Below, in pieces: positions 33,864 through 57,377 of a stretch of DNA of 64,000 nucleotides (positions are counted from its first letter, which is position 1; the number at the start of each line of letters is the position of its first letter). Origin of the DNA: an uncultured beta proteobacterium (lineage in GTDB: Bacteria; Pseudomonadota; Gammaproteobacteria; Burkholderiales; Burkholderiaceae_C); the NCBI GenBank assembly GCA_903938815.1, contig CAJAES010000039.1, forward strand, positions 1-64,000. Reading direction: 5' to 3'. Position numbers and translations under genes: made by a program. The notes below the pieces were generated by a model. It worked only from the letters and a program-made list of their open reading frames with translations, was not told the origin of the DNA and ran no database searches.

Positions 33864-33939
33864 GGCCTGGTAGCTCAGTTGGTAGAGCAGCGGATTGAAA
33901 ATCCGCGTGTCGGTGGTTCGATTCCGCCCCAGGCCACCA
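33864..33939 (+). tRNA. tRNA-Phe (anticodon GAA)
   Basis: The 76-nt sequence folds as a complete tRNA: the acceptor GGCCTGG pairs with CCAGGCC, the D arm is GCTC...GAGC, the anticodon arm GCGGA TTGAAAA TCCGC carries GAA, the T arm is GGTGG TTCGATT CCGCC, and CCA is encoded. It delivers phenylalanine. It forms the left edge of the accessory region, and tRNA-Phe genes are frequent integration sites; an integrase remnant lies 1.4 kb downstream. Confidence 0.97.
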
Positions 33940-35310: not shown

Positions 35311-35655
35311 TCAGCGAAGCGGCTTGACGCGCTGGCCGATGTGCTGGCGCACATAGTGCTCGGTCATGTCCCGGTTCTTGTGCCCCAGCAACACCTGCGA
35401 GTGCGCGAAGTCGCCGGTGTCGCTCGCGATCTTGGCGCGGATATCGCGGAACTGGAACGCAACGCCGGCCGCCTTGCGGGCCTTGTCGAAGCGCCCGCGC
35501 AGGGCCAGCATGCTCAAGGGCCGGCCGTTGTCGTCTTGGATCAGGTAGGCGCTCAGGCGCTCGCGCGGTCGGGCATTGATGCGCTCAATCACCTGCGCCA
35601 GCTCGCCCACGATCTCAATCGCACGCTTTGCCCCGGTCTTGTTCTGCGCGACGAA
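35311..35655 (-). pseudogene. Truncated tyrosine-type integrase (C-terminal remnant)
   Basis: The frame is open for 114 codons after a TGA at 35656-35658 and reads as the C-terminal catalytic domain of a phage-type tyrosine recombinase: FVAQNKTGAKRAIEIVGEL, FQFRDIRAKIASDTGDFAHS (box II region with the second Arg), LLGHKNRDMTEHYVR with the conserved His and the Tyr nucleophile. The N-terminal DNA-binding part and the first catalytic Arg are gone, and no start with a ribosome-binding site precedes it. It is therefore a dead relic, probably of the element that inserted near tRNA-Phe. Confidence 0.85.
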
Positions 35656-35859: not shown

Positions 35860-36882
35860 TTACGCCAGGCCCAGCCGCTGCCTCACATCGGCGAAGTCGG
35901 GCGCTTCGGCATACAGCCTCTCGAACGCCTGCCGGGCCTGCGGGCGCCGCCCCTGGCGTTCGTACAGGACGGCGCGCTCGTAGCGGATCTGACGCAGCAA
36001 GGCGGGCGGCCGGTCGGCGCGCCGACGCAGCGCCAGCGTGAAGACGTCCTGCGCTGCCGCATCGAGGCCCAGTTGCACCAGCGCACGGCCGCGGTACAGC
36101 AGCAGCGCCGTGTGCACAGGGGTCTCGTTCTCGACGTCCGCCGTCAGCGCGACGATGCGCTCCAGGGAGGGCCGGTCCTGTCCTTGCCGATCCAGAACCA
36201 GCTCGGCGAAGGACGCCTGCACCACTGCATCGGCGCGCGCGAGGGTCAGCAAACGCTCCAGATGCGCCATGGCCCCGTCCGTGCGCTGCTCGATCTGCGC
36301 GATCTCCACCAGGGCAAGCCTTGCGCCGTACTCGGACGGGCGCGCGTGGGCTATGACGTCCGGGGCCACCGGGAACGTCACCGCCAGGGACAAACCGTAC
36401 TTGTCCAGCGTTGACCCCAGAAGCCCGGACCCGGCCAGCGCAGACTGCAGGTGCGTGCGGGCGGCCGTGAGGTCCTCAAGCTTGAGCCGCAGGATTCCGG
36501 CCAGCCAGGCCGCGTCGGGCAGCGCGCCTGCCTGCTCGAGCGCCGCCAGCGCGGCGGCCTCGCCGCCGTCGTCCAGGGCCAGCAGGCCGTCCACGAACGA
36601 GCGTTCGGCCGCCGGCATCAGCAGCCGGCGCAGGAACCCCAGGTCGAGGCGTTCCCGCGCCGTGGGCGCGGGCGGCGAACGCCGGCTGCCCTGCTGGCCG
36701 TGCGGCGCGTGCACCGAGTAGAACAGCCCGCTGCCCGGCAGCCCGGCCGTGATGCGATGACCGCTGGGGCCGATCGTGTACTTGGCACCCGGTGGTCCGA
36801 AGGACAGGGAGGCGGACGACTTGGACAGATTCAGCGTGACCCAGGGGGCCAGGCGGATGCGTTGCCAGAAGCGAAAAGACAC
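35860..36882 (-). CDS. DUF4236-domain protein with TPR-like repeats
   Basis: The 340-residue protein starts at a GTG with GGAGGAA upstream. Residues 1-55 are a DUF4236 domain (MSFRFWQRIRLAPWVTLNLS, GPPGAKYTIGPSGHRITAG). The remainder is helical and Ala/Leu-rich with tetratricopeptide-like units (GAMAHLERLLTLARADAVVQ, RQARQAFERLYAEAPDFADV). DUF4236 proteins are widespread in plasmids and prophages; the function is unknown. It lies between the integrase relic and the CRISPR array, with 277 bp of apparently non-coding DNA upstream. Confidence 0.8.
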   Translation of the reverse strand: MSFRFWQRIRLAPWVTLNLSKSSASLSFGPPGAKYTIGPSGHRITAGLPGSGLFYSVHAPHGQQGSRRSPPAPTARERLDLGFLRRLLMPAAERSFVDGLLALDDGGEAAALAALEQAGALPDAAWLAGILRLKLEDLTAARTHLQSALAGSGLLGSTLDKYGLSLAVTFPVAPDVIAHARPSEYGARLALVEIAQIEQRTDGAMAHLERLLTLARADAVVQASFAELVLDRQGQDRPSLERIVALTADVENETPVHTALLLYRGRALVQLGLDAAAQDVFTLALRRRADRPPALLRQIRYERAVLYERQGRRPQARQAFERLYAEAPDFADVRQRLGLA

Positions 36883-37159: not shown

Positions 37160-37393
37160 GTAACAGTAGCCAACCCAACCCGGGGCGGCTTGCCCAATCG
37201 CCAGGCTGGGCCGGCTCATCACCTAGTTTCAGTAACCACCCCAACCAGAGGCGGCTTGCACCCCCAACCTGGCCGGCTACAAGACCATGCTCTTCCAGTA
37301 ACCGCCCAATCCAGAGGCGGCTTGCACGCAGTGGGACGCGATCACGCGCGCCGTCAACTTCCAGTAACCGCCCAAACCAAAGGCGGCTTGCAC
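37160..37393 (-). CRISPR. Mini CRISPR array: four 36-bp repeats, three 30-bp spacers
   Basis: Repeats lie at 37160-37195, 37226-37261, 37292-37327 and 37358-37393, an exact 66-bp period; spacers are 37196-37225, 37262-37291 and 37328-37357. On the - strand the repeat starts GTGCAAGCCGCC and ends GGCGGTTACTGGAAG (or ...TGAAAC), and the GCCGCC/GGCGGT arms form a hairpin suited to Cas6. The two repeats nearest csf4 differ by 2 bases, the next by 5, and the last by a further 7, so decay grows away from csf4; the outermost is the trailer. The array starts 10 bp after the csf4 stop, so it may be read through from the cas operon. Confidence 0.88.
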
Positions 37394-37402
37394 CGAACTC
37401 AC

Positions 37403-39010
37403 TCAAGTCATTGATTCGCTTGCATAAACCTTGCTTTCGACCTCTGGAAAACCCTCCGCCCTCATGCGGAAATGAGCCTCGGCATGGTGGTTCTTGCAGA
37501 GCACTTGCAAGTCGTCCAGCGTCGTCGTCCGGGCGCCATGAGCCAGCGGGACAGCATGGTGCACATCCAGCAGGTGAAGGGCTGTGACGTCGCAATCCGG
37601 CCACTGGCACCGATGGCCGTGGTGACGCAGCGCCATGTTGCGCAGGCTGGTTCGCTCCCGCTTGAAGTGGGCCACCCACTCGGGGGTGCCCTCCAGGGCC
37701 GAGACCGCATCGTCCCAGTCGACGCTGAAGCGCGCGGGGATCGCCTCACGCAGTTCCGGGCGGCCAGAGCGCGGGTCGAGCAGCAGCAGCAGGCACTGGG
37801 CGTCCGGCGTGCGCAGCCCACGGTGCAGGCCCTGGTCGGTGCGCCGGACAGCCACCACGCGGCTGTCGACGTAGTGGCTGATGAAGCGGCCGGCCAAGAT
37901 CAACGGCGCGCCGTAGGGCGCTTTCGGCAGAGCCACCGTCTTCCATCGAAGTCGTGGCTCATCCAGGCCCGACCAGGCGCCTGCGGCCACCAGGATGCCG
38001 TCGTCACGACAGCGGTCTACAGCCGACTGCAAGGGCTCCCGCCCATCTCGGAGCACGGCGCCTGGCAGCAGTGCGCCCAGGGCCTGGGTGTCGGCGTGGC
38101 TGGTGGTCAGGACCAGGGCAGGCCTGGGCGCCTGCAGGATGCGATGCACTTTCTGCTCGTCGCTCATGGCCTTGAGCGCCACCTCGACCCTCAGACGACC
38201 GTGCGCCTTGGGATCGATGTGGCGGCTGGCCGGGTCCACAACGGGCAGGCCGAGGCTGCCGACGAAGTGATCGAAGCGCCCCGCAACCTGCAAGGTGCCG
38301 CTGGTGAAAATGGCCCTGGGCAACTCGCGCAACAGCGGCCTCAGCATGCGTCCCGGCATGCGGTGCTTCAGCGCCAGATCGCCTTCCTCGGTCCAACCGA
38401 CGGCCTTGTACCAGGCCGGGTGGGCCAGCGCGTGCAGGATGGCCGCCGCGCAGGCTCTGTCCTCTGCTTCGCGGGCATGCAGCTTCACACGCTCCGCGGC
38501 GCGGCGCGGGTCGGTCTCTCCGGGCGCCACGTCGTCGAAAGTCTTCGCACCGACGACAAAGGTGCCCCGCAGATCGGCCGCGTCGGCCAGCAGGTCCGCC
38601 TCGTCGAACAGCACGACCTCGCGCGCGCGCAGCCCGGCGTAGCCCGGGTTCAGGCTGTCGATCAGCGCCGCCGCATGCGTCAGCACGAGGACCTGGGCGC
38701 GCAGGGCGCGTTCGCGGTGCTCGCGATGCGCGCGGTCGGATTCGAAGGCTTGCCGAGGTTGCAGCGCTTCCACGGTGGCATCGACGCCCTGCCGCGCTGC
38801 CGTCAACGCAGCACTCGACAGGTACTGCTCGATCAACTGCCGCGTGCTCATCGCAATGGCCACGCGGCGCCCAGAGCGCAAGAGCGGGATGCTGTAGCCG
38901 TGGGTCTTGCCCAGGCCCGCCGCAGCGCCGGCCAGCAGCGGGGCGCCGGGCGCCAAGGCGCCCTCGATCAACCTCGCATAGGCTGCCTGCTCTGCGCTGC
39001 GGTAGATCAT
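37403..39010 (-). CDS. csf4: Csf4/CasDinG helicase with C-terminal HNH nuclease domain (type IV CRISPR)
   Basis: The ATG at 39010 overlaps the csf2 stop (ATGA), which fixes the start of this 535-residue protein. Residues 1-about 420 are a DinG/XPD-like superfamily 2 helicase: Walker A AGAAAGLGKTHG (Lys35), DEAD box at 136-139 and the AIFTSGTLQVAG motif. No cysteines lie between Walker A and DEAD, so no iron-sulfur cluster. Residues 463-515 are an HNH domain: CQWPDC (Cys468, Cys473), VHH (His484, His485) and VLCKNHH (Cys505, His508, His509). CasDinG unwinds target DNA with the Csf complex; the HNH would add cleavage. An HNH-fused DinG variant of type IV has been reported, so this is a rare known form. 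Confidence 0.92.
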   Translation of the reverse strand: MIYRSAEQAAYARLIEGALAPGAPLLAGAAAGLGKTHGYSIPLLRSGRRVAIAMSTRQLIEQYLSSAALTAARQGVDATVEALQPRQAFESDRAHREHRERALRAQVLVLTHAAALIDSLNPGYAGLRAREVVLFDEADLLADAADLRGTFVVGAKTFDDVAPGETDPRRAAERVKLHAREAEDRACAAAILHALAHPAWYKAVGWTEEGDLALKHRMPGRMLRPLLRELPRAIFTSGTLQVAGRFDHFVGSLGLPVVDPASRHIDPKAHGRLRVEVALKAMSDEQKVHRILQAPRPALVLTTSHADTQALGALLPGAVLRDGREPLQSAVDRCRDDGILVAAGAWSGLDEPRLRWKTVALPKAPYGAPLILAGRFISHYVDSRVVAVRRTDQGLHRGLRTPDAQCLLLLLDPRSGRPELREAIPARFSVDWDDAVSALEGTPEWVAHFKRERTSLRNMALRHHGHRCQWPDCDVTALHLLDVHHAVPLAHGARTTTLDDLQVLCKNHHAEAHFRMRAEGFPEVESKVYASESMT

Positions 39011-39990
39011 GCGGCGGCGGGTTCCTGGATGTAGGTGCGGCCGACATCCGTCCATTGCACTGTGGCCGGCCGATAGTTGCCAAAGCCCACGACGACGAGC
39101 ACCTCGCCGTCGTCCTTGGTGAAGGTGACATTGCCGGCAACCTCGCCGAAGCCGCGCGCCAGGTGCGCACCCAGCACCGGCTTGCGGCTGATGCGCTCGA
39201 AGGCCCCGACCAGGATGCCGAGGTCGCGGGGTCGGGCCCGATGCACGACGAGCTTGCCCGTGAGGTCGATGCCCGCGGGGATGGCCTGGATCTGGAGCAG
39301 GTGCTTGGTGTTCTCGGAGACGTCGTCGCCCTTGGCAACCTTCTTCTGGGCTTTCAGCTCTTCGAGCTTGACTTCCATCTCCTCGGCCTGCTGCGACTTG
39401 TTGGCGCGCTTGGCCTTCATCAGCTCCCGCTGGGTGACCTTGATCATGTTCTCGACCTTCGAGGCGGAGGCTTGCCGGTCGCGTCGAGCGTAGAGCGCGT
39501 CATGCTCATCATCGCCCAGCAGGTCCATGATGTCGCGGTTGGCATCGAGGTCGCGGCGGATGACGCTGAAGGACTCGGCGGCCACGTTGACCGCGGGCAT
39601 CAGGTGCGAAACGAGCAGGCGGCTGGCCATCTTCCAGGTGCCGAAGAGGTCCAGCAGCGGCTGGCTGTCACGCAGGGCCTGCTGCTCGGCCATGCGCACC
39701 TGTTCGATCTCCGTGTCCTCCTCCGGGCGCAGGTCCTGGCCCAGCGCGGCCATGTACGCCACCTCGAGCTTGACCTTCCGGCCACCACGCTCGAACTCGT
39801 CGGCGGCTGCTTCGTGGCGGATGCGGCCACGCAGCTGGGAGGCCGGGACGAAGACGGTGCGCTGATGCCGGCCGTCGGCGTCGACCCCGCGGGTCATCAG
39901 GGGCAGGCCCTCGATGCTGTGATGCGTGAAGCTGACCGGGTTCAAGGTGCGCAAGGTGATGACGCCGAAGAGGAAAGGGCTGGAGTTCAT
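39007..39990 (-). CDS. csf2: Csf2, Cas7-like backbone subunit of the type IV complex
   Basis: A 327-residue RAMP-type protein. It has the features of Csf2: FLFGVITLRTLNPVSFTHHS at the start, a basic VPASQLRGRIRHEAAADEF segment typical of Cas7-like backbones, a central Lys/Glu-rich helical insert (KRANKSQQAEEMEVKLEEL) and the C-terminal GILVGAFERISRKPVLGAHL. Multiple copies should coat the spacer part of the crRNA. The ATG has GGAG upstream; the stop overlaps the csf4 start, and cas6 ends 13 bp before its start. Confidence 0.9.
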   Translation of the reverse strand: MNSSPFLFGVITLRTLNPVSFTHHSIEGLPLMTRGVDADGRHQRTVFVPASQLRGRIRHEAAADEFERGGRKVKLEVAYMAALGQDLRPEEDTEIEQVRMAEQQALRDSQPLLDLFGTWKMASRLLVSHLMPAVNVAAESFSVIRRDLDANRDIMDLLGDDEHDALYARRDRQASASKVENMIKVTQRELMKAKRANKSQQAEEMEVKLEELKAQKKVAKGDDVSENTKHLLQIQAIPAGIDLTGKLVVHRARPRDLGILVGAFERISRKPVLGAHLARGFGEVAGNVTFTKDDGEVLVVVGFGNYRPATVQWTDVGRTYIQEPAAA

Positions 39991-40003
39991 GTCGGCTCCC
40001 TGG

Positions 40004-40486
40004 TTACTGGACGATCAGCAGGTTGAGTCCAAAGGCCTTTCCGACGCGACCGATGCCGTTGACGAGACAGCGCGCGAAAGAGTCCGGCTCGGTCACGCGC
40101 AGCAGGCCGGTGAACTCGCTGGCGTCGACGGTGAAGCGGCGGCCGTCGTGGGTCTGCACCTCTTGCATACGGCCCGAGACATGCACGCCCACGACCTCGA
40201 AACCGTGCTTGGCGCCCTCCTTGTGCAGCCAGTCGCTGCGGCCGCGCCAATCGGCCACGGGCAGATAGCGGTGACGCCTGCCGTCGCGCAGGGCCACGCA
40301 GGCGGTGGTGGTGAATGCCAGCAACTTGCCCGCCGGATGAAACGGGGGCTGGGCCTCGCTGGGCCGGATGCGCAGTTGAGTGCCCTCATCAGCCCACAGC
40401 GCGGGCCTGCCCTGGCAGAACTGCTCGACGATGCGATGCAACGCGTAGCCGCGCACACGCGGTGGTTTGTCGATCAGGATGTCCAT
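40004..40486 (-). CDS. Cas6e-like crRNA endonuclease (Csf5 position)
   Basis: The 160-residue protein has the Cas6 hallmarks. An N-terminal VRGYALHRIVEQF (His17) matches the catalytic YxxHR pattern of Cas6e, and the C-terminal Gly-rich loop is NGIGRVGKAFGLNLLIV. It should cut the repeat at the 3' base of the GCCGCC/GGCGGT hairpin and may stay bound to the crRNA. In type IV-A loci this slot is called csf5. The ATG follows AAGGAAAA and overlaps the csf1-like gene by 13 bp. The name Cas6 is used for the fold and residues; the subtype label is inferred from context. Confidence 0.85.
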   Translation of the reverse strand: MDILIDKPPRVRGYALHRIVEQFCQGRPALWADEGTQLRIRPSEAQPPFHPAGKLLAFTTTACVALRDGRRHRYLPVADWRGRSDWLHKEGAKHGFEVVGVHVSGRMQEVQTHDGRRFTVDASEFTGLLRVTEPDSFARCLVNGIGRVGKAFGLNLLIVQ

Positions 40487-40884
40487 GACTTTTCCTTGGT
40501 CGCGTCGTAGGTCTTGGTGTGTCCCTGGCTGCACTCCCGCGCAGCCATGGGGTGGTAGGTGACGAACAGGTCCCGCGCGGTCATCGTTCGCTTTCCGAGC
40601 GCCAGGAGCATGCAGGGCTCGCCGGACTTCAGCGCCGCCAGGATGGCGGTCTTGCGATCTATCGCGATGTCGAAGCCAGCAGACAGCACGGCCTTGAAGC
40701 TTGTGGCCACGCCGTGCGGCGTGATGACCATCCAGCACGATGACAACCTGAGGAACTTGCCCGTGTACTGCGGCAGGCTGATGCTCATCACGGTGTTGGC
40801 GTCGTCCACGGCGTCGCCCGTGACCAACTCGCGCGGCAGCAGGCGGTAGCCCGAGTAGCGCATGAAGAACTCGGCGCCGTTCAT
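40474..40884 (-). CDS. Csf1-like subunit of the type IV complex (small form, tentative)
   Basis: A 136-residue protein starting MNGAEFFMRYSGYRLLPREL whose ATG overlaps the csf3 stop (ATGA). The body is mixed alpha/beta with IAIDRKTAILAALKSGEPCM and LLALGKRTMTARDLFVTYHP. It is the only gene left to fill the Csf1 (large-subunit-like) slot. Canonical Csf1 proteins are longer and have an N-terminal CxxC zinc finger, which is absent here: only three isolated Cys are seen. It is either a reduced Csf1 or a replacement subunit. Assignment is by operon position more than by sequence. Confidence 0.6.
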   Translation of the reverse strand: MNGAEFFMRYSGYRLLPRELVTGDAVDDANTVMSISLPQYTGKFLRLSSCWMVITPHGVATSFKAVLSAGFDIAIDRKTAILAALKSGEPCMLLALGKRTMTARDLFVTYHPMAARECSQGHTKTYDATKEKSWTS

Positions 40885-41507
40885 GCAGTCATCGTTGGCA
40901 CGAAGCAGCAGGTGCGGTTTCGGACGTCCCAGTAGGGCGCCTTCCAGGCAGCCTCCATGGGAATCCAGTCGCCACCAGCCGTCCAACGCTCGGTGGGCAC
41001 GGGACGCAGCGGCTCGCCCAGGTAGCCGATCAGCCCGTCGAGATCGTCGTGCTGCGCATGCCAGTGCTCCACTTCGCCGTAACCTGCAGAGCGCTTCTTG
41101 CCGATGAACGAGACACTCTGCACGACAGCCAGCACTGCATCCATGTGCCCGGTGGCATACCACTCGACCGCACGCGCCGTGCTGGCTGTGTAGGCGTTGA
41201 GCACGTTGCCGCCCTCGCGGCGACGCGCGAGGCCGATCTGGACGTCGCCATCCTTTGTGTTGGGCTGGATGACATGACCCCAGCAGGGCGTGTGCTCGGG
41301 CCGCATGCTGGCGACAAAGGAGGCGGGCGACTGACCGATCACGTCGACCGGGAATCCCGCGCTGGCGTAGTACAGGCCGTCGACGCAGTGCAGCAAGTCC
41401 GTGACGTCGCCCCGGCCGAGTACGGCCATCAGCAGGGCGTCGAGGGTCGAGTAGCCGCGCTGGATGACGGGTGAGCGCAACCGCGCCCTCAGGACGAACG
41501 TGTCCAC
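40881..41507 (-). CDS. csf3: Csf3, Cas5-like subunit of the type IV complex
   Basis: A 208-residue RAMP protein in the Csf3 family: VDTFVLRARLRSPVIQRGYS, STLDALLMAVLGRGDVTDLL, the Gly-rich loop SVSFIGKKRSAGYGEVEHW and LRPVPTERWTAGGDW. Csf3 caps the 5' handle of the crRNA. The GTG at 41507 is chosen because AGGG precedes it by five bases; a TTG at 41543 would add 12 residues but has no ribosome-binding site. It is the first clearly CRISPR-related gene of the operon, 141 bp after a membrane protein gene. Confidence 0.88.
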   Translation of the reverse strand: MDTFVLRARLRSPVIQRGYSTLDALLMAVLGRGDVTDLLHCVDGLYYASAGFPVDVIGQSPASFVASMRPEHTPCWGHVIQPNTKDGDVQIGLARRREGGNVLNAYTASTARAVEWYATGHMDAVLAVVQSVSFIGKKRSAGYGEVEHWHAQHDDLDGLIGYLGEPLRPVPTERWTAGGDWIPMEAAWKAPYWDVRNRTCCFVPTMTA

Positions 41508-43628: not shown

Positions 43629-44741
43629 TCACCGCAGGCCCAGCGCTTCCCACGGCGCCGGGCGGCCGAACCAGCCCCAGCGCGCGCCGTCGACCAGGTC
43701 GAGTTCGCTCGACCAGGAGGCCGCGCGTTCAAAGCGGCAGTCGACGAGGTCGAGCCAGCGCCGAGCATCCGGCAGTTCAACTTCAGGGGTCGTGATGCGG
43801 ACGAACCGGGGCGCCTCGTCGCCAGGAAAGGCGATGAACTGCACCGTGGCTTCGCTGGCCACGCCGGAGCGGACCACCGCCAGGGCCAGCCGGCGTGCCA
43901 GCAGCGTGCCTGCCCGGTCGGGCTTCCAGAAGTCCTTGCCGCTGAGGGCCGTGCCGCCGATCGGCACGCGCGGCCCGTAGTGGTCGAGCAGGAGCTTCTT
44001 TCCCGACAGCCCGTTGTCGCCTTCCGGCCCGCCCATCGTGAAGGTGCCGCTGCCGTTGACGGTGATGTCGCCGGGCATGGTGGGCCCGAAGCCGGGAAGC
44101 CTGGCGGCGAGGTCCTGGATCACCTCGCCCACGGCCTGCACGACGGTGCGCTGCAGTTCGATGTCCCCCGCCTTCGCCAGCAGCGAACACGAGACCGCAC
44201 GAAGCCGGCACTGCGGTCCGCTCTCCTCGAGCACCACGAGCACCTTGCCGTCCGGGCACAAGGCGATCGGCGAGCGCACCCGTTCGAAGAGTCGGCGTGC
44301 GATCTCCCTGGCCAGCCACTGCTCCGGCGGGATGAAGCCGAGCCCCGGCAGGTCGATGGCGTAGCCGGTGACGATCGACTGGTCGTCGCTGATGTGCCGG
44401 ATCCGCTCTTCTCCCGGGACCAGCGTGTCCAGGCAGAGGTTGCCGCCGGTCGTCACGTCGCCGGGCGCCGGCCGCCACGCCGCGCCATAGCCTGCGGACG
44501 CGTACACGCCCCGCACCAGGCCCTGCAGGTCCAGCGTGTCAGAGCCCGTGCAGGCGATCCGGCCCGTCAGGTAGACGGCATCCCGGTGGACCGCGACCTC
44601 GACGGCGCACAGCGCCTCCCGCTGCCGCTCCTGCGCGGCCTGCACCAGGGTGTCCGCGATGGCGTCGGCCAGCTTGTCGGGGTGTCCGGGCAGGACCCAT
44701 TCGGCGGGACGCAGGACGGTGGTGTTCATGGTCCGGCTCAT
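43629..44741 (-). CDS. Divergent S-adenosylmethionine synthetase-like protein
   Basis: A 370-residue MetK-family protein. The ATP/Met-site loops are recognisable: VLPGHPDKLADAIADTLV (GHPDK kept), ISDDQSIVTGYA, FTMGGPEGDNGLSGKKLLLD and ALSGKDFWKPDRAGTLLARR. It is shorter and more divergent than housekeeping MetK, which expects for example GDQG in the second loop. Its place between a VWA/peptidase-like gene and an unknown gene suggests a specialised SAM source or a repurposed enzyme. The ATG at 44741 has AAGGAC upstream; an ATG at 44756 would give an ATGA overlap with the previous gene. Confidence 0.82.
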   Translation of the reverse strand: MSRTMNTTVLRPAEWVLPGHPDKLADAIADTLVQAAQERQREALCAVEVAVHRDAVYLTGRIACTGSDTLDLQGLVRGVYASAGYGAAWRPAPGDVTTGGNLCLDTLVPGEERIRHISDDQSIVTGYAIDLPGLGFIPPEQWLAREIARRLFERVRSPIALCPDGKVLVVLEESGPQCRLRAVSCSLLAKAGDIELQRTVVQAVGEVIQDLAARLPGFGPTMPGDITVNGSGTFTMGGPEGDNGLSGKKLLLDHYGPRVPIGGTALSGKDFWKPDRAGTLLARRLALAVVRSGVASEATVQFIAFPGDEAPRFVRITTPEVELPDARRWLDLVDCRFERAASWSSELDLVDGARWGWFGRPAPWEALGLR

Positions 44742-44752
44742 GGCGATGTCCT

Positions 44753-46105
44753 TCATGCGTCGAGGTCGAGCGTGATCGATGCATCGGCGTGGCGTTCGAG
44801 CGGATCCCGGCTGATGTGCGCGCCGATGTAGGCCACGCCGAGGCGGGCGCGGCCCAGCGTCTCGCACCCTGCCGTGTCGGCTGCGCCCACGAAGCCGTCG
44901 GTCAGCAGAACGGCGCGCCGCACGCGATGGCGTTCCATGTGCCGGGTCACGCAGCGGATGTCGGTGCCACCGGTGCTCCTGCACATCCCGGCCCGCAGCT
45001 GCGCCGGCGTGACCTCGGCCACCTGCGTCGAGAACAGGTGCACCTGCGGGTGAACGAGTGCCTCGCAGTCCAGCACGGCGCCGTAGAGCGCGCCCTTGAT
45101 GCCTTCCATGCTGCCGGAGACATCGACATAGATGTGCACGCGCTCCTGCGCGGGCACGGACTGCCGGGCCTGCAGCGGGGTGCGGTACAGCAGCGGCGTT
45201 CCGCCCAGCGCGCGGCTGACCATCGCGCGGCGGTCGGCGCAGGGCACCGGCGACTCGATCTGGATCCCGGACGGCATCGGACGCCGGGCTCCGCGGCCCG
45301 TGCCGGAGGCTCGGGCGACCTTGCCGATCAGCTCGCGCAACTGCCGCCGGCGGCTGGGCGCGCGTGCAACATGCAGCCGCGAGTCGCGCAGCAACTCGTT
45401 CATCGACAGCCCCCGCAGCGGCTCGGGCGGCGACGGCCAGTGGCGGACGATGTCCTGGACGGCGCCGGCCAGCACGTTGCCGCTGGCGGTGGCCTGGCCA
45501 TGCGCGGAGCCTTCGTGGTCGCCCAGCAGCGTGACGGTGCTCAGCACCTTCTCGCGGCGCGCCAGGAAGGCCCGCAGCACGTTGCGGATGTCCTCGTAGC
45601 TCGCGCCCTCCTTCGAGTACAGCGACTGGTAGACCTGCCGCGCCGGCCCGTAGCCCCTGCCGGCCAGGGCCGGCGGCACCGGCACCTTGCGGATGGCAGG
45701 GTTCCAGTCGAGCGGGGGCCGCAGCAGGCAGGCCGGGAAGACGTCGTCGGGATAGAAGTCGCGGAACAGCGCCGTGTACGCCGGCTGCGGGAACATGCGG
45801 CACAGCAGCGCGTTGATGACGCAGTCGAAGACGAAGTTGTCCGCGGGCGCCGAGCCGGACAGGCGCCGCGTGTGGCCGAGCAGCACGTGGTGGATCTCGT
45901 GCAGCACCAGCATCATCAGCTTCTCGGGCGTGCCGGCGTGCTCTGCCACGAAGGCCGGGTTGATGAGCAGCCGGGGCTGTGCGTGGCACTCCACGGCGGC
46001 GGTCGGTACGGCGTCGGTCTCGACGATGTCCACCAGCCGCAGCAGGCCGGCCAGCGCGTAGCGGCCGGCAGGCAGGCAGTCGAAGAGTTGGTCCTTGAGG
46101 TTCAT
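44753..46105 (-). CDS. Metallopeptidase-like and VWA-domain protein (DUF2201 type)
   Basis: The 450-residue protein has two recognisable parts. The N-terminal part has a zinc-peptidase-like motif MMLVLHEIHHVLLGHTRR (HExxH at 69-73). The C-terminal part is a von Willebrand A-like domain with an intact MIDAS motif (VHIYVDVSGSMEGIKGAL), GGTDIRCV and AVLLTDGF. This combination is the DUF2201/VWA-like family, often encoded beside MoxR ATPases that act as their remodelling partners. The start is chosen at MNLKDQLF, preceded by AAGGAC. The stop lies just before the MetK-like gene. Confidence 0.88.
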   Translation of the reverse strand: MNLKDQLFDCLPAGRYALAGLLRLVDIVETDAVPTAAVECHAQPRLLINPAFVAEHAGTPEKLMMLVLHEIHHVLLGHTRRLSGSAPADNFVFDCVINALLCRMFPQPAYTALFRDFYPDDVFPACLLRPPLDWNPAIRKVPVPPALAGRGYGPARQVYQSLYSKEGASYEDIRNVLRAFLARREKVLSTVTLLGDHEGSAHGQATASGNVLAGAVQDIVRHWPSPPEPLRGLSMNELLRDSRLHVARAPSRRRQLRELIGKVARASGTGRGARRPMPSGIQIESPVPCADRRAMVSRALGGTPLLYRTPLQARQSVPAQERVHIYVDVSGSMEGIKGALYGAVLDCEALVHPQVHLFSTQVAEVTPAQLRAGMCRSTGGTDIRCVTRHMERHRVRRAVLLTDGFVGAADTAGCETLGRARLGVAYIGAHISRDPLERHADASITLDLDA

Positions 46106-46143
46106 GTCCTTGTCCTTGTTCTTGAGAGGAAGGGCCGGCCGGT

Positions 46144-46761
46144 TCAGCCGATCGGGTTCGGGCGCCAGGTCTTCTGCGGCTTGGCCTGCTCCATGGCGAG
46201 GCTCAGCAGTCCTTCCGGAATGCCGTCCGGAAACCACAGCGTCTGTTTCCAGAGAACGCCCCGCATCGGCGTGCTCCCAGGCTCGATCAGGGTGGGTGCG
46301 TGAAGAGGCGCCAGGCGCGGCACCCTGTCCCGCATCCACAGGCTTCCGGTCGACTTCGACAGCGCGACGAAGGTCGTCGGCGCGTGGTCCAGCGTCACCT
46401 GTTGATCGCGCCGGCCGCCGGCTGCGCCGACCATCAGGCATCGCGGCCAGTCCAGACGCTCCGTGTGCTCCTCGATCCGTTCGACGAGACACCGCGTGGC
46501 CGCGGTCTCGCCGAGCGCGTGTGCCGGCTCCAGCAGGCGCAAGAGGGCGCCCGCCGTATTCCAGTCGCGTTGGTAGCGCCCATTGGCCTGACCGATCGAC
46601 AGCGTCAGGTGCAGCCAGGTGCCGCGCCGGCGGGCGACTTCGATGCGCTCGGCATCGTCTGCCAGCGGGCCTCGCCCGAAACCGCGCCACAGGATGCTGG
46701 CGCGTGGCGGGCCGCCGATGTTGTGCAGCAGGCCCGGCGTCTCTTCCATGGCGCGGCTCAT
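46144..46761 (-). CDS. Unknown protein between MoxR and VWA genes
   Basis: A 205-residue protein starting MSRAMEETPGLLHNIGGPPR, whose ATG overlaps the MoxR stop by four bases. It contains RRGTWLHLTLSIGQANGRYQ and ALSKSTGSLWMRDRVPRLAP and ends in WRPNPIG. I do not recognise a domain. Tight coupling to the MoxR gene and a 38-bp gap to the VWA gene indicate that it is a real component of this operon, perhaps an adaptor between the ATPase and the VWA protein; that role is a guess. Confidence 0.7.
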   Translation of the reverse strand: MSRAMEETPGLLHNIGGPPRASILWRGFGRGPLADDAERIEVARRRGTWLHLTLSIGQANGRYQRDWNTAGALLRLLEPAHALGETAATRCLVERIEEHTERLDWPRCLMVGAAGGRRDQQVTLDHAPTTFVALSKSTGSLWMRDRVPRLAPLHAPTLIEPGSTPMRGVLWKQTLWFPDGIPEGLLSLAMEQAKPQKTWRPNPIG

Positions 46762-48230
46762 GCCGTGGCCGTTCCCAGGCGGGACTGAACGTCCACGTAC
46801 CGTTGCAGCACGGTGTGCACGTCCTCTTCCGCACCCAGCCGGTTCGCAGCGAACAGGGAAGCCAGCAGATTGCCCTTGCGCTCGGTCAGCGGTGTGGCGG
46901 GCTCCGCGCCCAGCCGCTGCTGCAAGGTCTTCCAGATGCGGTGCCGCAGGCCGTTCGGCGAGACCTGTTCCGACACCTCCTGCACGCAGGCCACGTCGCG
47001 GTAGACCTCGGCCACGGCGTCGGCCGCCACGGTCGACAGGCGCGCCACGGTGCCGCTCTCGAAGAGCCACTCCGCCAGGGCGTGCCGGGCGCCGTCCGCC
47101 GCGCCGGTGAGCGCGTCGGTGAGGATGGTGGTGAGTTCGCCGTCGGGCAGCCCCGTGGCGGCCAGCGCCAGCCGGACCCGTGTGACCGGGTCACGCTCGG
47201 CCAGGATGCGCCCCATGGGGTCGTCGGCCTTGGCCGCGGCCTGCCGCCAGGCCTCGCGGTGGCAGGCCAGGAGCCGGCCTTCATCGAACTTCTGCCCCGC
47301 AGCCGCGAACGGCATGCTGTTCAACGCGGCGATCCATGCCGAGTCGTCGATCCGGGCATCCGTGTCGGCGGACAGGCGCGCCGCGTGGACGGCGGCCAGG
47401 TTGCGCGACACCATGCCGGCGCGCCGCGCGCTCAGTTGCAGGCCCGCCGCGCCGAGCAGTGAAGCCAGGATGCGCACGTAGCGGGCGATCGATGCGCCCC
47501 ACTGTGCGTCCACCATCGGCAGCAGCTCGCCGGTCCGTGCGATGGCCGCCGTCCACAGGGTGCCGGCCAGAGGGTCCGCAGGCACCTGTTCGGCCCGGAT
47601 GACCGCTTCCTGCTGTGCTGCGTCGAAACCCTGCCAGTCCGGCATTCGCGCCTGCAATGCGAACCGGTCCGACAGCGCGATGTCCAGCGGCTGGCTGCCG
47701 AGGTAGGCGTTGTCCTCGTCGTCGTCCTGCACCGGCGGGTTCATCGCCGCCCAGCGGTGCTTGAGGTCGGGCAGCGGCAGGCCCTGCACGCGCCGCTCGT
47801 GGATGATGGGGAACAGCCTGTTCTGCACGTCCAGCCGGGCGCGCGAGATCTCGTCGATGAAGACGGCCTGCGCACCCCACACGGACGCGGGCGTCTCGAC
47901 AAAGCGCAGCTTGCCTTGCGCGTCGGGCAGGGGGTAGCCCACGAGATCGTCGAAGTTGACGAGCGCGGCGTTGTAGTGCCGCCAGCGCAGGCCGAGCGCA
48001 TCGGCCAGGCGCTCGAGCAGCAGCGACTTGGCGGACCCGTGCGGGCCGATCAGCAGCAGCGGCGACTGCGTGGCCAGCGAGGCCAGCACCACCGGCTCCA
48101 GCGCGCCGAGGCCGATGAGCCCGAGCCTGGAGATCAGGTCACGGCGGCTCGGTGGCGGCGCGGCACTGGCGTCAATGTTGGGCTGCGGCGACTTGCCGGC
48201 AGCCTTCTTCGGGGCGAGGGATTTCGCCAT
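46758..48230 (-). CDS. MoxR-type AAA+ ATPase
   Basis: A 490-residue MoxR/RavA-like ATPase. Motifs: Walker A LLLIGPHGSAKSLLLERLA (near residue 62), Walker B AVFIDEISRARLDVQN and sensor region KHRWAAMNPP. About 220 residues of helical C-terminal part follow the AAA core. The start at 48230 (MAKSLAPKKAAG) has GGAG eight bases upstream. MoxR proteins act as chaperones for VWA proteins, and one lies two genes downstream. It is the first gene of the operon; its promoter must lie in 48246-48350. Confidence 0.9.
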   Translation of the reverse strand: MAKSLAPKKAAGKSPQPNIDASAAPPPSRRDLISRLGLIGLGALEPVVLASLATQSPLLLIGPHGSAKSLLLERLADALGLRWRHYNAALVNFDDLVGYPLPDAQGKLRFVETPASVWGAQAVFIDEISRARLDVQNRLFPIIHERRVQGLPLPDLKHRWAAMNPPVQDDDEDNAYLGSQPLDIALSDRFALQARMPDWQGFDAAQQEAVIRAEQVPADPLAGTLWTAAIARTGELLPMVDAQWGASIARYVRILASLLGAAGLQLSARRAGMVSRNLAAVHAARLSADTDARIDDSAWIAALNSMPFAAAGQKFDEGRLLACHREAWRQAAAKADDPMGRILAERDPVTRVRLALAATGLPDGELTTILTDALTGAADGARHALAEWLFESGTVARLSTVAADAVAEVYRDVACVQEVSEQVSPNGLRHRIWKTLQQRLGAEPATPLTERKGNLLASLFAANRLGAEEDVHTVLQRYVDVQSRLGTATA

Positions 48231-48358
48231 GGGAATGCACTCCAACCGTCCGGAACCGCAGGCGCGGCTGCGCCGGACGGGTGTGGCGCAACCGACGCTT
48301 TAGCAGGATTTGTGAATCGCCCTGCAATTTGTCGAGTAAATCGGCGATGAAATGAAAA

Positions 48359-48382: not shown

Positions 48383-48889
48383 CTTGCCTGCTGTTGTTGC
48401 GCACGTTCTTGCGAACTGCGCCTCATCTCCGAATCGCTTCGGATGCCACCTTGCCGCAGGACGGCAGGTTGGCGACAGGCAGGCGGCCTGTACTCTTGAT
48501 GTCAGCTTGAATTCTAGGCCTGGGAGCCGTGAGGCGCAATGCAATTCGCAGCGCGCCGCGCCCCGTTCGACGGCCTGCGGCACGCTCGTCGCAGCGTCTG
48601 CGGACACATTCAAGCTGCTGCAGGAACAGCACATCTTGACGTGATGGGCGCTGCCCATCGGGAGCCACGCCTTCAGCGGCCAGGCCCGAGTCGAGGCAAC
48701 CGACACGCTGCCTCATGCGATCAGATTTCCCGATCATCCCCCGCCAATCCCTATGCTTACGTTGCACCGATCGGCCTCTACCATCGCCTCGTTCGACGCA
48801 CCCGACCCCCTGCCCGCAGGCCAGGTCGGCGCGATCGACGAGCCGCCGGCGCCTGCCGCAATGCCCGGCGCCCAACCAGAAGGACGCCG
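48383..48889. other. Non-coding stretch before the Rieske oxygenase gene
   Basis: About 500 bp without a convincing gene. Long frames exist on both strands but lack ribosome-binding sites and look like high-GC artefacts. It likely contains the + strand promoter for the oxygenase and dehydrogenase genes and the right edge of the island. No tRNA fragment or direct repeat of the tRNA-Phe end is visible. Confidence 0.5.
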
Positions 48890-57297: not shown

Positions 57298-57321
57298 ACC
57301 GGCGGGGCGTAGCCTGACGGC

Positions 57322-57377
<56 letters not shown>

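Follow-up and report, generated by a model that had tools for sequence, protein, structure and literature searches.

Does a type IV-A CRISPR (clustered regularly interspaced short palindromic repeats)-Cas system, a type that otherwise only silences, cut its targets when its DinG-type helicase carries an HNH nuclease domain? This question is raised by a locus on the minus strand at 37160..41507 of the window, the stretch of 64,000 nucleotides (nt) analysed here, from contig CAJAES010000039.1 (assembly GCA_903938815.1) of an uncultured beta proteobacterium. A first-pass annotation, made from the letters alone, had read it as a type IV locus with a DinG-HNH fusion, a form it gave as rare, and had taken it for a further natural case, not for a new class. 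A rare variant of type IV-A with DinG-HNH was indeed described, and tested, in Sulfitobacter sp. JL08 (Altae-Tran et al., 2023; PMC10910872), and the HNH form is listed as IV-A2 in the 2025 classification (PMC12669027), as far as the openly accessible parts of these papers go. The label IV-A2 also occurs in a 2024 paper (PMC11519345), perhaps with another meaning. The locus belongs to the known DinG-HNH variant (IV-A2), as a new, deeply branching example of a rare kind, so that the earlier interpretation stands; and probably, to judge from the analysis below, it is a system that cuts its targets.

The nuclease part lies at the C-terminus of the 535-residue CasDinG-HNH protein (37403..39010; PADLOC typeIV_DinG, E-value 2e-40; Pfam DEAD, 5.3e-8). 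The HNH module, recognized by alignments, EcoKMcrA profile matches, a domain model and Foldseek, covers residues ~440-513 (37472..37693, minus strand) and contains an EG...ER lead-in, C468-x4-C473, H484-H485, D500, C505-x2-H508, H509 and H513; the motifs CQWPDC, VHH and VLCKNHH fall within residues 463-515, where the domain had been annotated. A profile of three fused proteins, from the window and from two relatives introduced below (one from Rhodoferax, the other probably alphaproteobacterial), matches EcoKMcrA in PDB at 8.2e-6, and an HNH-domain alignment of 21 rows does so at 1.7e-11. This alignment comprises the window and 20 of the 37 loci found with a gapped DNA pattern on the spacing from the PxRF motif to the HNH part (24 stretches from genome_contigs, 13 from viral_contigs); among the 17 loci left out, L025, L026, L033, L035 and L041 also look HNH-like and the others do not. 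As HH, D, C, H and H formed part of the pattern, those columns are invariant by construction, whereas CxxC and an EG...ER..R lead-in lay outside it and are nonetheless common to the alignment (near-invariant lead-in columns E13, G14 and R26; E440-G441 and E452-R453 in the window).

The HNH domain model is a beta-beta-alpha domain in the order helix-strand-strand-helix, with a mean predicted local distance difference test score (pLDDT) of 79.7 and blocks of 83-97 over residues 31-90 of 108. Foldseek placed EcoKMcrA first (probability 0.98, a modest E-value of 0.024) and a type I-E HNH Cascade second, and the HNH fold expected at the C-terminus is borne out by this structure check. The module is also conserved in both relatives: identity over residues 440-513, compared with the helicase core, is 54% versus 36% between the window and Rhodoferax, 43% versus 40% between the window and the alphaproteobacterium, and 51% versus 53% between the two relatives. 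The McrA-like HNH motif set and fold are present according to profiles and domain model. CasDinG thus ends in a McrA-like HNH domain that keeps the positions described as catalytic in JL08 (H485, D500 and H509 in the window, with H484 and H513 in addition).

The helicase core (residues 1-428), which the PADLOC and Pfam models match, contains Walker A K35, D136-E137-A138-D139 and motif VI Q393/R397/R400. No Cys occurs from Walker A to the DEAD box, in line with the claimed absence of Fe-S cysteines, and K35, the DEAD box, H484 and H485 all sit at the residues first assigned to them. The core to the PxRF motif is 428 residues long versus 603-684 in six plasmid-borne CasDinG proteins, and the extension past PxRF is 107 residues versus 16-39. 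Invariant in the three fused proteins are K35, D136-E137-A138-D139, Q393, R397, R400, H484, H485, D500, H509, H513, C468, C473 and C505; the HNH spacing of the Rhodoferax protein is partly so by construction, because it was found by the DNA pattern, whereas the alphaproteobacterial one came from a protein search. In PDB, the three-protein profile also matches the CasDinG-type helicase 8s35 (5.4e-16).

The helicase gene is the last of five intact open reading frames (ORFs) on the minus strand, 41507-37403, which encode 208, 136, 160, 327 and 535 amino acids in the order cas5, cas8, cas6e-like, cas7 and casDinG and are all open at the place first described. The overlapping junctions proposed for them are found in three cases out of four (cas5/cas8, 4 nt; cas8/cas6, 13 nt; cas7/casDinG, 4 nt), and at the fourth, cas6/cas7, there is a 13-nt gap. 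The first gene, cas5 (csf3; 40881..41507, GTG start; PADLOC typeIV_Cas5, 4.7e-25), shares 39-40% identity with its counterparts in the two relatives, and the N-termini of those proteins line up close to the GTG start. The cas6e-like crRNA (CRISPR RNA) endonuclease (40004..40486; PADLOC typeIV_Cas6, 2.8e-26; Pfam CRISPR_assoc, 9.6e-15) has a conserved GYALHR..V motif and 42-44% identity to its counterparts, and cas7 (csf2; 39007..39990; PADLOC typeIV_Cas7, 3.1e-35; NCBIfam cas7_csf2, 3.4e-11, under cut-off) has 32-34%. The csf1-like cas8 (40474..40884) was assigned from its position and from blastp to the relatives. Neither PADLOC, Pfam nor NCBIfam gave a convincing hidden Markov model match for it, and PADLOC did not match the counterparts of either relative; it scores 47.4 bits against the same-place protein of Rhodoferax (E-value 6e-12 in a database of two sequences) and 30.4 bits against the alphaproteobacterial one. 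Cas8 and both counterparts are mutually homologous and occupy the place called cas8 in the papers.

Type IV models of PADLOC recover four of the five proteins, Cas8 being recognized only through its counterparts. In the profile search that had been chosen beforehand as decisive, csf2, csf3 and cas6 were assigned to type IV CRISPR families; the NCBIfam matches to Csf2, Csf3, Cse3 and Csf4 are every one under cut-off, which makes the locus a distant member. Among the hallmarks of type IV-A, type IV Cas7 and Cas5, a DinG-type helicase gene in the operon, and an array with Cas6 are found here, and a Csf1/Cas8-like subunit is a candidate only; one further DinG-like match in the same genome is weak and lies on a different contig. 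The array (37160..37393, minus strand; repeat search) begins 9 nt past the casDinG stop, directly behind the operon as proposed. It has four diverged 36-nt repeats with 66-nt spacing (37358-37393, 37292-37327, 37226-37261 and 37160-37195) and three 30-nt spacers (37328-37357, 37262-37291 and 37196-37225), and genome-wide the repeat is present only at the locus at up to three mismatches. Repeats R1-R3 fold as a stem followed by 8 nt, as do, in all, five of the six repeats folded, and the stem pairing is kept across species.

Relatives were sought with CasDinG (P0001) in six draws of whole genomes, at E limits of 1e-20, 1e-15, 1e-15 and then 1e-10; the draws may overlap, and overlaps were left in the counts. 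The first three returned one match each (1/399, 1/299 and 1/398), each time the window's own genome, and the last three 0/7, 0/298 and 1/385; the draws with 0/7 and 0/298 were aimed at Rhodobacterales but missed that mark. CasDinG matched no phage record and only two plasmid records, both from Alteromonas (28.6% identity over 38% of the protein); the one Alteromonas protein examined ends 30 residues past PxRF, without the HNH part. No relative came from scans of viral_contigs with P0001 and P0002 or with a two-row alignment, nor from a scan of genome_contigs with P0001. Among the 37 pattern stretches there is one full-length relative (L045, uncultured Rhodoferax metagenome-assembled genome, E-value 3e-86), while L023 and L031 match the HNH part only; because the pattern was fixed to one codon choice (CGCTTC) and to fixed motifs, relatives may well be missed.

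Another contig of the same Rhodoferax genome, L059, holds cas6, cas7, cas5 and cas8 together with an array of the same repeat, and we infer that L045 and L059 join at the array. At the end of L059 (1-121), two adjacent array units show no difference over 55 nt, of which 18 nt are spacer; this is either a doubled spacer or an assembly artefact. The second relative, L067, the match in the class draw, has cas5-cas8-cas6-cas7, a 17-repeat array and casDinG-HNH. Its host is probably an alphaproteobacterium, since that draw was centred on a genome with the gene transfer agent family PF13547, which among 14 control genomes was positive only for Caulobacter. The L067 array gave a best E-value of 0.3 against phages (2 records) and plasmids (3 records). 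CasDinG-HNH of the window is 37-39% identical to the two relatives, which have the same architecture. All five proteins are common to the three systems at 26-44% identity, and so are repeats of ~36 nt, spacers of ~30 nt and a hairpin with 8 nt after it. By helicase core the window is the deepest branch of the three; its array comes behind casDinG, its repeats are diverged, and its genome gave no cas1 match.

How such a system works has been reported for JL08. According to the accessible text, that system has a YCN protospacer adjacent motif and a 30-nt spacer, lowers transformation by three orders of magnitude and cuts in one direction, and its interference needs all five components, D139/E140 and H497/D514/H523 (PMC10910872). 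The available parts of a 2025 review name the protein CasDinG-HNH, with a compact Arch and a condensed Fe-S-like region, give the Zn knuckle as four Cys, note H527, place casDinG downstream of cas5, cas8, cas6, cas7 and the array, and mention an unusual Nordella homologue (PMC11981726). A 2025 engineering paper reports, in its accessible part, that this HNH domain makes another CasDinG cut DNA (PMC12714560). The mechanism is already published for a homologue. In the open literature, supplements aside, DinG-HNH occurs in 6 papers and no paper joining CasDinG, HNH and Burkholderiales was found; the locus itself may already be part of the 2023 survey.

As far as JL08 is described in these texts, the window shares with it the five-protein set, the HNH at the C-terminus of a compact CasDinG that has no Fe-S cysteines, the gene order cas5-cas8-cas6-cas7-casDinG, the 30-nt spacer length of the crRNA, and the spacing 514-523-527 (500-509-513 in the window; residue numbers only, the sequences not being aligned). 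By the same texts it differs in that its array follows casDinG, whereas that of JL08 precedes it, its knuckle is of the CCCH form with C-x4-C where JL08 has four Cys, it has, by the numbers compared, two residues fewer from HH to D, and its array has only four diverged repeats. With ordinary type IV-A systems it shares matches of Cas7, Cas5, Cas6 and CasDinG to type IV models, and its Cas7 matches 458 plasmid records (at <30% identity among the matches listed); in contrast, all six plasmid CasDinG proteins stop 16-39 residues past PxRF without a nuclease domain and have cores 175-256 residues longer. EcoKMcrA and stand-alone McrA-like HNH proteins have the same CxxC..HH..D..CxxC/H core and, in most rows, the EG...ER..R lead-in, but they are separate enzymes, EcoKMcrA being of the restriction type, and are not fused to a helicase. 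Cas5-HNH (I-E2) and Cas8-HNH (I-F4) are likewise class 1 effectors with an added HNH, in the accessible text of PMC12669027, but there the HNH sits in the Cascade backbone, not the helicase, among type I genes.

By homology, CasDinG-HNH should unwind and cut crRNA-marked DNA. Cas6 would cleave the transcribed array at the foot of every repeat hairpin, the site expected from the Cas6e family, and the resulting crRNAs would have an 8-nt 5' handle, ACUGGAAG or ACUGAAAC, and a 30-nt guide. Cas5, Cas8 and Cas7 would assemble around the crRNA and scan DNA for its target. On the model of the JL08 homologue, the helicase of CasDinG-HNH would be loaded at the R-loop on the displaced strand and travel 5' to 3' with ATP, and the tethered HNH would cut both strands en route, like a Cas3 built from other parts.

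Several results weigh against this account. The Pfam HNH model scored 16.6 bits, under its cut-off of 21.4, so that the domain needed the other evidence given above; Foldseek found no match at E 0.001 for the HNH domain model; Pfam Helicase_C_2 is under cut-off in CasDinG; and a full-length CasDinG model from a two-row alignment reached a pLDDT of only 36. The window repeats fold little better than shuffles, which were as stable as R1-R4 in 17, 24, 8 and 80 of 200 cases, and the stem covariation is not clearly above that of column shuffles, which was as high in 36 of 500, or in 143 of 500 when only pairs changed on both sides were counted. There is no cas1 match in the genome, which is rated 100% complete, and a search of the array against phages (6 records, best E-value 0.2) gave no convincing protospacer. 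A promoter scan found none either, and as 0.3 would be expected by chance this says little.

Other searches with the array were similar in outcome: against plasmids (39 records, best E-value 0.2 among the 30 matches listed) there was no convincing protospacer, and the first 20 nt of spacers 2 and 3 have no exact match in viral_contigs. For spacer 1, the first 20 nt have exact matches in three viral contigs related to one another (L068, L069 and L070), inside a UvrD-like helicase gene as read from translation. Over the full length the match is only partial (25, 25 and 24 of 30), the flanks (CGC, CTC and TTC) are none of them YCN, and it is possibly due to chance. Self-targeting was checked in the window and the fetched loci, at up to 5 mismatches.

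Part of this would suit a decaying or frozen locus, whose genes are intact and whose array is a relic or a few fixed guides that gain no new spacers. With four diverged repeats, three spacers and no cas1 match, the array may no longer renew itself, and an integrase fragment lies nearby. On the other side, the five ORFs are intact with tight junctions, R1-R3 retain the stem and the following 8 nt, and type IV-A systems usually lack cas1 and cas2. We regard a frozen locus as possible though somewhat unlikely; it and a cutting DinG-HNH system are not mutually exclusive.

That the system binds and silences like ordinary IV-A, with an HNH that is weak or serves another purpose, is improbable. The CCCH knuckle, as compared with the four Cys of JL08, and the HNH score under the Pfam cut-off speak for it, but the protein retains the positions reported as catalytic, conservation of residues 440-513 is similar to that of the core or higher, and the CCCH knuckle is also present in Rhodoferax. 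A stray, homing-type HNH that landed by chance in the helicase gene and is unrelated to CRISPR has very little left in its favour, since, although HNH nucleases are typically encoded by mobile elements (accessible text of PMC12669027), the conserved fusion, found at one and the same position behind PxRF in three divergent type IV systems, largely refutes it, and JL08 interference requires the HNH (available text of PMC10910872).

A cutting DinG-HNH system is the preferred reading. Its helicase and nuclease parts give conflicting groupings. In the core tree, built without the HNH part, the three fused proteins stand as one group versus six ordinary CasDinG proteins (support 100/100), Rhodoferax and the alphaproteobacterium are joined (100/98), and constraints joining the window with Rhodoferax or with the alphaproteobacterium gave p-AU (approximately unbiased test) values of 0.005 and 0.007. 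In the HNH tree of 22 rows the three fused HNH domains also stand together (93/91), but Rhodoferax joins the window (100/99), and the Rhodoferax-alphaproteobacterium constraint is rejected (p-AU 0.002). Leaving out six long-branch rows gives 100/98 for the window-Rhodoferax group and a p-AU of 0.060 for the alternative grouping; masking the knuckle as well gives 97/92 and 0.070. The third knuckle position is H in the window and Rhodoferax, which have the unusual C-x4-C / C-x2-H knuckle in common, and C in 19 free-standing HNH rows and the alphaproteobacterium. These comparisons concern groups named post hoc, three fused proteins and a short domain, and the program warned of long branches in the HNH tree and, in the core tree, of two rows with unusual composition. 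Because the two trees place Rhodoferax differently, the HNH part may have been exchanged; the conflict is a lead, with module exchange, replacement and uneven rates as candidate causes. That this compact-helicase IV-A clade swapped or re-acquired McrA-like HNH modules independently of helicase and complex is suggested tentatively by these trees and the shared knuckle, and is the less likely alternative.

Around the locus, a tRNA-Phe gene (33864-33939, plus strand) lies ~3.2 kilobases (kb) beyond the array, and a 99-residue frame (35311-35610, minus strand), ~1.5 kb beyond it, matches the C-terminal part of a tyrosine integrase at 26 bits, slightly under the Pfam cut-off; together they are perhaps what is left of an old integration site. 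A search of the window and the next 20,000 contig bases (up to the last 891 bases) gave no further copy of the tRNA end, and the guanine-cytosine content is only slightly lower in places, so that a genomic island was not established. Between array and integrase fragment, a DUF4236 plus TPR protein (35860-36882, minus strand) has no PADLOC match. Farther away, a SAM-I/IV (S-adenosylmethionine) riboswitch (48383-48507, minus strand, 47.4 bits) stands directly upstream of frames at 43629-48245 (minus strand) for a MoxR-like AAA ATPase, a VWA/DUF2201 protein and an S-adenosylmethionine synthetase-like protein, perhaps a SAM-controlled MoxR-VWA operon. The 14-nt unit CTGCCTACTGCCTA is repeated in tandem, with near copies, at 57321-57375.

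In the accessible literature only one natural DinG-HNH system with an experimental study was found. Three divergent five-gene sets with arrays help to separate features that are kept, namely the HNH triad, the EG...ER lead-in, the compact core and the repeat stem followed by 8 nt, from those that vary, namely array position, Zn knuckle and gene order. With them it also becomes possible to test whether this CRISPR type, otherwise confined to silencing, acquired a nuclease a single time or on several occasions.

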